Part shown: positions 21,736 through 23,969 of the stretch, in pieces
Layout: every line of letters begins with the position of its first letter
Numbering within the stretch: position 1 is the first letter of the stretch
Assembly (NCBI GenBank): GCA_025058515.1
Contig: JANXDW010000038.1
Location: forward strand, 1 to 38,028
Direction: 5' to 3'
From: Aigarchaeota archaeon
Lineage (GTDB): Archaea > Thermoproteota > Nitrososphaeria_A > Caldarchaeales > Wolframiiraptoraceae
DNA: 38,028 nucleotides
Program-made: the position numbers and the translations under genes
Notes under the pieces: model-generated
Told to the model about the DNA's origin: nothing
Seen by the model: the letters and a program-made list of their open reading frames with translations, nothing else
The model's database searches: none

Positions 21736-23193
21736 TCAAAGAGTATTTTGAATAGTTCTCTTGTAGAATTCTTTACCAAAATCTGTTAGAGAGTATTTCT
21801 TCTGAGTTCTCTTTGATCTAGCTCGGTCTAGGACTGATAGTTGGATCAATCCAATACTATAGAGATCAGATAAGTGTTCATAGATGGTCGGAAGCTTAAC
21901 TTTAATACCGTAATGGTTAGCTAGCTCTCTCTGTATACCATATCCATGTAAAGGTTTCTTATCCAGTATCTCTAGAATCTTCTTCTTAGTTGAACCAATC
22001 CTCTTGAATTGGTTAGGTCTTTCAAATGTCTTGATCTCAGCGATCGACTGGATCGTTGATGGATCCTTCATTCCAGATCCAGTTACGATGTAAACAACTG
22101 TTTCATCTCTCTTTATTAAACCTAGATCTACTGCATCTATTAGTGTAGCAAGAGATACTGCTGCCGCAGGCTCAGCTAATATTCCTTCACTCTTAGCTAG
22201 AAGCTTTATTGCTTCTAATAATCGTTCTTGACTTACTGTTAAGATCTCTCCACTTGATTCTCTTACTGCTTTTAATGCCATGTGACCCCAGATAGGATTT
22301 GGTTCAGCGATATCTGGAAATATGACTTTAAATGTTGAGGTAGGTTTTATATCTTCACTATTATTCTTATAGGCTTCAGCTATCGGTGCACATGAATTGA
22401 TCTGACCTCCAAGTATACTTGGTAAACCATCTTTCAGTAAACCGATCTCTTCAACTTCCTTAACAGCTTTCCAAAGTGCAGTGATATGCGACCCGCTTCC
22501 AACTGGTATCAGGATCCAGTCAGGTGAGACCCAGTTAAGCTCATCTAAAACTTCAAGTGTACATGTCTTATAGCCTTCTATGAGAAATGGATTAGAAGAT
22601 GTAATTAGATGACAGCTTGCAAGTTCTTGAGTTAATGAGGTTATCACTGATTCTAAGTTACTTGTAAAGAAAACTTCTGCATCATATGCTAATGCTTGCA
22701 ATACTTTTACTTGTTCAACACCTGTCTTTAAGTAGACTGAACATGGGATACCTGCTTTAGCAGAATAAGCTGAGATAGATACTGAGAGGTTTCCAGAAGC
22801 AATACAGATTATCCTCGATACGCCTACCTCTAGATCTCTACTAATCTCTACTGTAGCACCTCTATCTGTGAAAGCTCCCGTAGGGTTTGTTGATTCATTC
22901 TTTATGTAGAGTTTTCTGAGACCGATCAGCCTCCCCAACCCTCTAGAAGAGTGGAGATATGTTCCACCTTCACCCATCGAGATTGGACTAATTCTTATAG
23001 GTGGTAGAAGCTCGAGGTATCTCCAAACACTCTTAGGTCGAGAATTAAACTTCTCTCTTAATTGAGACCTATCTAGAGTGTTGAGATCATATTCTATCAA
23101 GTATGGTGAACCACATCTACAGAGAGTTCTCTCAAGTAGTGTTGTATAAGCTTCTCTTCTACTACATCTAGTGCATTTGTAGATTAGGTTCAT
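21736..23193 (-). CDS. Threonine-synthase-like protein with catalytic Lys replaced and C-terminal winged helix
   Basis: A 485-residue fold-type II PLP-enzyme homologue of the threonine synthase family. It has an N-terminal Cys zinc-ribbon (C7, C10, C25, C27), the substrate/PLP loop ESTNPTGAFTDRG (100-112), IASGNLSVSISAYSAKAG, a phosphate loop VGSGS and VTGSGMKDP. The Schiff-base lysine expected in NPTGSFKDRG is Thr109 (codon ACA), so normal PLP chemistry should be impossible. Residues about 405-485 form a PadR-like winged helix: ILEILDKKPLHGYGIQREL, then TIYEHLSDLYSIGLI, then KKYSLTDFGKEFYK. Together these suggest a ligand-sensing transcription factor derived from an enzyme. A sequencing error is the main alternative. 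It is divergent from the ECF gene across a palindrome. Confidence 0.88.
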   Translation of the reverse strand: MNLIYKCTRCSRREAYTTLLERTLCRCGSPYLIEYDLNTLDRSQLREKFNSRPKSVWRYLELLPPIRISPISMGEGGTYLHSSRGLGRLIGLRKLYIKNESTNPTGAFTDRGATVEISRDLEVGVSRIICIASGNLSVSISAYSAKAGIPCSVYLKTGVEQVKVLQALAYDAEVFFTSNLESVITSLTQELASCHLITSSNPFLIEGYKTCTLEVLDELNWVSPDWILIPVGSGSHITALWKAVKEVEEIGLLKDGLPSILGGQINSCAPIAEAYKNNSEDIKPTSTFKVIFPDIAEPNPIWGHMALKAVRESSGEILTVSQERLLEAIKLLAKSEGILAEPAAAVSLATLIDAVDLGLIKRDETVVYIVTGSGMKDPSTIQSIAEIKTFERPNQFKRIGSTKKKILEILDKKPLHGYGIQRELANHYGIKVKLPTIYEHLSDLYSIGLIQLSVLDRARSKRTQKKYSLTDFGKEFYKRTIQNTL

Positions 23194-23210
23194 TTCCTAT
23201 ATATAGGGAA
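23194..23210. promoter_or_regulatory. Palindromic candidate operator at the start of the winged-helix gene
   Basis: The core cctatatatagg (23196-23207) is a perfect 12-base palindrome. It is extended by TT/AA pairs on both sides with one mismatch. It lies two bases before the start codon of the minus-strand gene, where it would cover the transcription start. That makes it a good candidate site for autorepression by the encoded dimeric winged-helix domain (inference). Confidence 0.5.
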
Positions 23211-23211
23211 T

Positions 23212-23226
23212 AGCTTATATAATATA
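23212..23226. promoter_or_regulatory. Shared bidirectional TATA element
   Basis: The self-complementary ttatataa at 23215-23222 lies about 26 bases from the minus-strand ATG (23193) and about 28 from the plus-strand ATG (23247). It can therefore act as TATA box for leaderless transcripts in both directions. Confidence 0.55.
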
Positions 23227-23246
23227 AAACCTTACTATATAAGTTG

Positions 23247-23969
23247 ATGGGTATCGGGAAATCTACATCGTTGGGGTTGAAGACAGCTAGACTAGCTTTA
23301 TCTACAGCTATCGTAATGGCTGCCACCATGGTCTTCACAGTATACGTTCCCAGTACTAGAGGTTATTTTAATCTAGGAGAAACTATGGTCTATTTTACAG
23401 CTCTATACTTTGGCCCTTTGATTGGAGCTTTCGCAGGAGGAGTGGGATCAGCTTTAGCCGATATAATCTTAGGATATACTGTATATGCTCCAGCAACATT
23501 AATTATAAAGGGGGCGGAGGGGTGGGTTGCAGGTTATCTAGCTAGAAAATTTTTAGAAAGAGAAAAGACTTTTATAAACTTCATATTATCTCTAACTGTT
23601 TCAGCTGGTTACCTATTGATAATCTTAGTGATCGGTTTGTTTCTCTTCTCAGGAGAAGTTGAGGTATCTTTCACTATGTTAATATCTCTCAGTGGATTTC
23701 TCCATCCATTCATCTGGTATCCATTGGCAGTATTAGCAGTAGCTACCCCTCTCTACTTATCTATAAGGTCTAAAAAGTCTGAAGGTCTTCTTATACTAAT
23801 ACTACTATTCTCAGGATTAATAATGATTTTAGGTTACTTTATCTATCAACAATTTATCTTAGGATATTATGCTTTAGCTGAGATACCGGTTAATCTTGGT
23901 CAAGTAGTTTTAGGAGCTGCTGTAGCTATCCCTCTATATAGAGCTGTGCAGAGATTATCTACTAGATAA
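23247..23969 (+). CDS. ECF transporter S component (substrate-binding membrane protein)
   Basis: A 240-residue membrane protein with about six hydrophobic segments. The first part, ARLALSTAIVMAATMVFTVYVPSTRGYFNLGETMVYFTALYFGP, followed by GAFAGGVGSALADIILGY and LIIKGAEGWVAGYLARK, follows the pattern of energy-coupling-factor S components, which bind vitamins or metabolites and dock on a shared T/A1/A2 module. No T or ATPase gene is nearby, as usual for group II systems. The substrate is unknown. Divergence from the threonine-synthase-like regulator suggests control by, or a ligand linked to, that protein (inference). Start: ATG 23247, or TTG 23244 just before it. The 3' end overlaps the DUF61 gene by 8 bases. 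Confidence 0.82.
   Translation: MGIGKSTSLGLKTARLALSTAIVMAATMVFTVYVPSTRGYFNLGETMVYFTALYFGPLIGAFAGGVGSALADIILGYTVYAPATLIIKGAEGWVAGYLARKFLEREKTFINFILSLTVSAGYLLIILVIGLFLFSGEVEVSFTMLISLSGFLHPFIWYPLAVLAVATPLYLSIRSKKSEGLLILILLFSGLIMILGYFIYQQFILGYYALAEIPVNLGQVVLGAAVAIPLYRAVQRLSTR

Follow-up and report, generated by a model that had tools for sequence, protein, structure and literature searches.

A lysine-less threonine-synthase-like protein with a PadR winged helix as a probable vitamin B6 sensor-regulator of archaea

The window, a 38,028-nucleotide stretch of DNA from an Aigarchaeota archaeon, is contig C22 of a genome (G000) of 1.47 Mb that is about 95% complete. At 21736–23193 on the minus strand it holds a reading frame for a protein of 485 amino acids, with zero internal stops. 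A PALP domain (PF00291, residues 71–372, 201.7 bits against a cut-off of 35) is followed by a PadR-type winged-helix domain (PF03551, residues 406–478, encoded at 21760–21978 on the minus strand, 44.5 bits against a cut-off of 27), which agrees with the C-terminal PadR-like winged helix that had been claimed in an earlier note on this DNA. The AlphaFold2 model (mean pLDDT 85.5, pTM 0.75) has the same layout, a threonine synthase fold and then a winged helix, and its best Foldseek matches are solved threonine synthases (2zsj at E 6.7e-27). The protein narrowly passes the TIGR00260 thrC cut-off (169.4 vs 167.1) and scores 267.6 with PRK05638, the NCBIfam model for ‘threonine synthase’, which is below the cut-off of 421.

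The cofactor motif of this protein reads TNPTGAFTDR. When aligned with Lys-bearing threonine synthases, Thr109 takes the position of the lysine that forms the Schiff base with PLP. Translation and alignment thus bear out the threonine (ACA) that the earlier note had read in place of the lysine, although the codon had been placed two codons off, at 22873–22875; it lies at 22867–22869 on the minus strand. A sequencing error at this codon was ruled out, as threonine is found in four genomes of the same genus and lysine is missing from all 67 proteins of the window’s own clade (clade A, below), where the position is otherwise occupied by L, I, M, V, A or T. The genome also encodes a canonical thrC, L003 on contig C42 (NPTGSFKDR), and another Lys-bearing thrC-like copy, L002 on contig C38 (NPTHSFKDR). 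These two rule out the window gene as the only thrC of a threonine prototroph, and the second canonical gene for which the earlier note had asked a check is indeed present. Homoserine dehydrogenase is encoded as well. Next to L002 lies a further PALP homologue, L008 (G000:C38:56153-56947), which has no recognisable PLP-lysine motif.

Divergent from the fusion gene, at 23244–23969 on the plus strand, is a gene for an ECF transporter S component (PF07155, 101.7 bits against a cut-off of 26.7). Its open reading frame starts with TTG at 23244 and has an in-frame ATG at 23247. Between the two genes we noted a palindrome, CCTATATATAGG, at 23196–23207, which is the sole exact copy in the genome, and, 6 bases from it, a TATA-like element, CTTATATAA, at 23214–23222 (plus strand), which was read from the sequence and would form part of the promoter of the ECF gene.

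To place the protein in its family, homologues were gathered from relatives, more widely within the phylum and from named archaeal genomes, which gave 193 distinct sequences. Loci of the same family bear the name Candidatus Terraquivivens and those of the same order the names Candidatus Caldarchaeum and Pelearchaeum, which would place the genome in or close to Caldarchaeales. Lysine was lacking in 112 of the 119 homologues that carry a winged helix (one of these, L120, ends before the Lys position) and was present in 74 of the 75 homologues that do not. The exceptions are seven homologues with both the winged helix and the lysine, and one with neither, an Arg-type sequence that is incomplete at its locus. 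In a tree of the PALP domain (FastTree, with some long branches, so that it does not settle the order of the deep splits), the window protein falls in a set of 68 rows that a branch of 97% SH-like support separates from the rest. We refer to this set as clade A. All 68 rows carry the winged helix and none has the lysine; among clade A proteins, whose members span many archaeal phyla, the lysine is missing in 67/67. The loss of the lysine together with the winged-helix fusion is a trait of the family.

A second winged-helix-bearing group, group B, has the motif NPTNSF[R/K]DR, mostly with Arg at the Lys position; the sister-group members that retain the lysine (NPTNSFKDR) are L097, L099, L100, L103, L108 and L218. 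Group B genes are usually accompanied by an ECF S gene in the same orientation. Nine group B loci (L083, L087, L088, L091, L186, L191, L194, L198 and L222) have a canonical Lys-bearing thrC as divergent neighbour or nearby, and most of them have an ECF S gene downstream, an arrangement unlike that of clade A. One Arg-type group B protein with a winged helix (L178:5081-6490) passes the PRK05638 equivalog cut-off (429.1 vs 421), so members of the family are probably misannotated as threonine synthases in databases.

The divergent pairing seen in the window is conserved. Across 65 distinct clade A loci, the divergent gene belongs to PF07155 in 32/65 and is PdxS in 7/65, a tally that includes the ECF genes of L040, L053 and L189 and the PdxS of L090, which are overlapped by other ORF calls. 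About a third of clade A loci had neither a PF07155 nor a PdxS partner in the sequence examined, and some of these have other neighbours. At the pdxS loci, PdxT lies behind PdxS; Pfam confirmed PdxS in L069, L170 and L209 and PdxT in L170. The pair of fusion gene and ECF gene recurs in three families of the order with varying flanking genes, and also occurs in Thorarchaeota, Lokiarchaeota, Hermodarchaeum and Thaumarchaeota. In Bathyarchaeota, Thermoplasmata and Nitrososphaerales, the gene divergently paired with the fusion gene encodes PdxS, and several of these loci share the palindrome of the window. Two of the three characterised prokaryotic vitamin B6 transporters, PdxU and PdxU2/HmpT, belong to PF07155 (PMC9997740). 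As the ECF gene alternates with pdxS, and PdxS is absent here, the S component in the window is predicted to transport vitamin B6 and to be a target of the fusion protein. However, PF07155 is a mixed family that also has transporters of other vitamins, and the genomes also lack ThiC and RibB, so at loci without pdxS the transporter may carry a different vitamin.

Some loci carry additional genes beside this pair. In many group B operons (for example, L178:7321-8337, L182:2790-3815 and L185:7338-8345) and in L071 of clade A (L071:1108-2118), the ECF S gene is followed by an AIR-synthase-like gene (PF00586/PF02769; weakly like HypE, ThiL and SelD), which is a candidate for the missing B6-vitamer kinase. 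Two loci have the exact palindrome and no adjacent ECF gene. At L183:3012-4627, the divergent gene encodes a GNAT acetyltransferase and is followed by an EamA/DMT-like permease; at L068:89-1060, an EamA/DMT-like permease is itself divergent. This permease is possibly an alternative B6 transporter.

The palindrome follows the fusion gene and its partners closely. At most clade A loci, over a range that runs from Caldarchaeales to Asgard archaea and takes in loci linked to pdxS, CCTATATATAGG stands between the start codon of the fusion gene and the TATA-like element. The spacing to the TATA-like element is conserved across 30 loci that were aligned, as well as at the unlinked ECF gene in G035. 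Allowing up to two mismatches, it was found in 49/70 clade A upstream regions, which include some loci twice, as compared to 53/5000 random windows of the same loci, a background that is overestimated because the random windows contain true sites. At the same threshold it was found in 0/50 upstream regions of group B and two Lys-bearing homologues. Exact copies number 14 in 61 genomes; 12 of the 14 are at the fusion gene or its ECF gene, one per genome. In G035 the fusion gene lies apart from the ECF gene, and it is the ECF promoter that carries this genome’s one exact copy; in G064, the unlinked pdxS has a copy with two mismatches. Some deep clade A loci (L077, L169, L171, L173-L176, L179 and L084) lack the palindrome. 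A larger regulon in G000 was rejected, as one-mismatch copies numbered 6 versus 5 for a reversed-pattern control (forward), and five other near copies in this genome (L275-L279) had no evident B6 gene beside them. Considering its conserved placement, the palindrome is a predicted operator of the fusion protein.

The position of the predicted operator differs between the two promoters. On the ECF or pdxS side it lies 6–7 bases upstream of the TATA box, and on the side of the fusion gene it follows the TATA box and precedes the start codon. Archaeal activators use sites just upstream of BRE/TATA, and a site between TATA and the start codon is typical of repression. Its position relative to both TATA boxes suggests activation of the vitamin genes combined with autorepression.

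We then considered what the protein might sense, for which the earlier note had proposed threonine, O-phosphohomoserine or PLP itself. In the 67 clade A proteins (window numbering), Asn135 is kept in 97%, Gly232 in 99%, Gly234 in 100% and Thr371 in 99%. By alignment with solved threonine synthases and from what is known of the family, we take Asn135 to be the O3' contact of PLP, Gly232 and Gly234 its phosphate-loop contacts and Thr371 its N1 contact. Of the residues that are presumably on the substrate side of threonine synthase, Thr136, Arg204 and Gln208 are invariant in an alignment of 38 canonical ThrC proteins and have been lost from clade A, where Asn236 is down to 12% as compared to 100% in the same 38. 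The Lys position is hydrophobic in most of clade A. The phosphate loop is also altered, with Asn233 replaced by Glu, Ser or Thr, so the affinity for PLP may differ. As judged from these residues, the pocket is what would be expected of a PLP sensor and not of a sensor of threonine or phosphohomoserine.

A protein that senses threonine or a pathway intermediate such as O-phosphohomoserine, possibly joined to PLP in an external aldimine, in order to regulate amino acid metabolism would fit with a sensor domain derived from threonine synthase, and with the 9 loci of the Arg/Lys sister group that are divergent from a canonical Lys-bearing thrC. Nevertheless, we consider it improbable: clade A is without the substrate residues Thr136, Arg204 and Gln208, a thrC paralogue was found within three genes at 0/75 clade A loci, and the partner genes that are conserved encode PdxS or an ECF S component. 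Among the ligands proposed earlier, then, threonine and O-phosphohomoserine lose ground on the lost substrate residues and the lack of a nearby thrC paralogue, while vitamin B6 in the form of PLP is favoured by the kept PLP-site residues and by neighbours that are pdxS(T) or S components of the PdxU/HmpT family.

The distribution of B6 synthesis points the same way. Among 61 relatives, PdxS was found in 0/25 genomes with a winged-helix-fused protein and in 21/36 without one, a comparison whose p-value is inflated by relatedness; the 25 include several genomes (G044, G051, G053 and G058) whose fused protein is of group B. As controls, ThiC and RibB showed no such split in these 61 relatives. 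Strict mutual exclusion of PdxS and the fusion protein was rejected, as it is true in the 61 relatives but fails phylum-wide, where some genomes have both. Three of these, G071, G105 and G180, have pdxS and the fusion gene side by side in divergent orientation, which suggests that the same regulator is paired with either synthesis or uptake. PdxS, ThiC and RibB had no match in G000 (about 95% complete), so the organism is probably a multiple B-vitamin auxotroph.

The absence of ThiC and RibB in these genomes, along with the mixed membership of PF07155 and the AIR-synthase-like gene (weakly like ThiL, HypE and SelD) after some ECF genes, would also suit a regulator for another ECF vitamin (thiamin/HMP or riboflavin), with the pdxS linkage being local reuse. 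We regard this as unlikely, because PdxS is the divergent partner in lineages as distant as Bathyarchaeota, Thermoplasmata and Nitrososphaerales, where several loci share the palindrome, because the presence of the regulator follows the absence of PdxS and not of ThiC or RibB, and because the sensor fold is a PLP-binding fold. It is very unlikely that the protein has remained an enzyme (a lyase or synthase that works without the lysine, its winged helix being structural or autoregulatory), since, even though the fold as a whole and a good part of the active-site scaffold are preserved and a few sister-group members retain the lysine (NPTNSFKDR), most of clade A has a hydrophobic residue in its place and has lost the substrate residues too, canonical Lys-bearing copies are present in the same genome, and a dedicated palindrome is found at the target promoters.

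We therefore favor a vitamin B6 sensor-regulator, and compared it with known systems. In Bacteria, PdxR targets pdxST or pdxK/pdxU, its gene adjoins its targets, it is autoregulated, and PLP is the signal (PMC5320631, PMC11619246). Bacterial PdxR is an activator of pdxKU in the absence of B6 and a repressor of its own gene (PMC11619246). According to published accounts, Archaea have no MocR regulators (PMC5320631), and for most prokaryotes the B6 transporters are not known (PMC9997740). PdxR, of the MocR subfamily of GntR, is like clade A in joining a sensor derived from a PLP enzyme to a winged helix, and the targets are comparable, with clade A having a divergent PdxS or PF07155 S component and a shared palindrome; the resemblance is in the way of working and not in homology. 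MocR proteins combine a fold-type I aminotransferase domain with an N-terminal GntR domain, whereas the window protein is archaeal and combines a fold-type II PALP domain with a C-terminal PadR domain. Also unlike the window protein, the fold-type I domain of MocR keeps its lysine. Threonine synthases (ThrC/PRK05638) share the fold, an N-terminal zinc-knuckle-like region and the PLP-site residues with the window protein, and the PRK05638 alignment extends into the C-terminal winged-helix region; the window protein differs in having neither the Schiff-base lysine nor the substrate residues. It shares with PadR regulators the PF03551 winged helix and a palindromic site (here a predicted operator, CCTATATATAGG), and differs from them in its fused PALP sensor domain. 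In Bacillus subtilis, CymR also uses a fold-type II PLP enzyme, CysK, as its sensor, but CysK is separate, active and Lys-bearing. ThiR is an archaeal vitamin regulator with an enzyme-derived sensor domain (ThiN), which senses thiamin phosphates and is of unrelated fold. No archaeal PLP regulator or HTH-fused threonine synthase was described in the open-access literature searched (subscription papers were mostly outside its scope).

Overall, the window protein is quite likely an archaeal sensor-regulator of vitamin B6 that works as PdxR does without being homologous to it, with binding of PLP and DNA and the sign of control as predictions. The earlier suggestion of a metabolite sensor, made up of a fold-type II pseudoenzyme of the PLP kind and a winged helix, agrees with all of the evidence gathered, ligand and DNA binding again being predictions. 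The loss of the lysine across the family, the predicted operator and the second group with Arg at the Lys position go beyond that note. The regulator would sense vitamin B6, most likely as PLP, non-covalently in the former cofactor pocket. Besides its own gene, it would control pdxST where the organism is a B6 prototroph and the divergent ECF transporter where it is an auxotroph. In the likeliest scheme, the B6-free form would activate uptake or synthesis and repress its own gene, and binding of PLP would stop the activation. The main alternative within the B6 explanation is that the PLP-bound form would repress both genes.

More broadly, these proteins probably form a class of archaeal B6 regulators (in Caldarchaeales, Bathyarchaeota, Asgard archaea, Thermoplasmata and Nitrososphaerales) that arose from a fold-type II PLP enzyme whose loss of the lysine would let it report free PLP by reversible, non-covalent binding. 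As a counterpart of PdxR, the class would bring to light the first ECF transporters for B6 in Archaea and, beside some of them, candidate B6 kinases. For archaeal B6, the family provides a predicted regulator together with candidates for its operator and for transporters, and it draws attention to misannotation among threonine synthases. PLP-sensing regulators probably arose twice from unrelated folds, here by shedding a residue thought to be essential.
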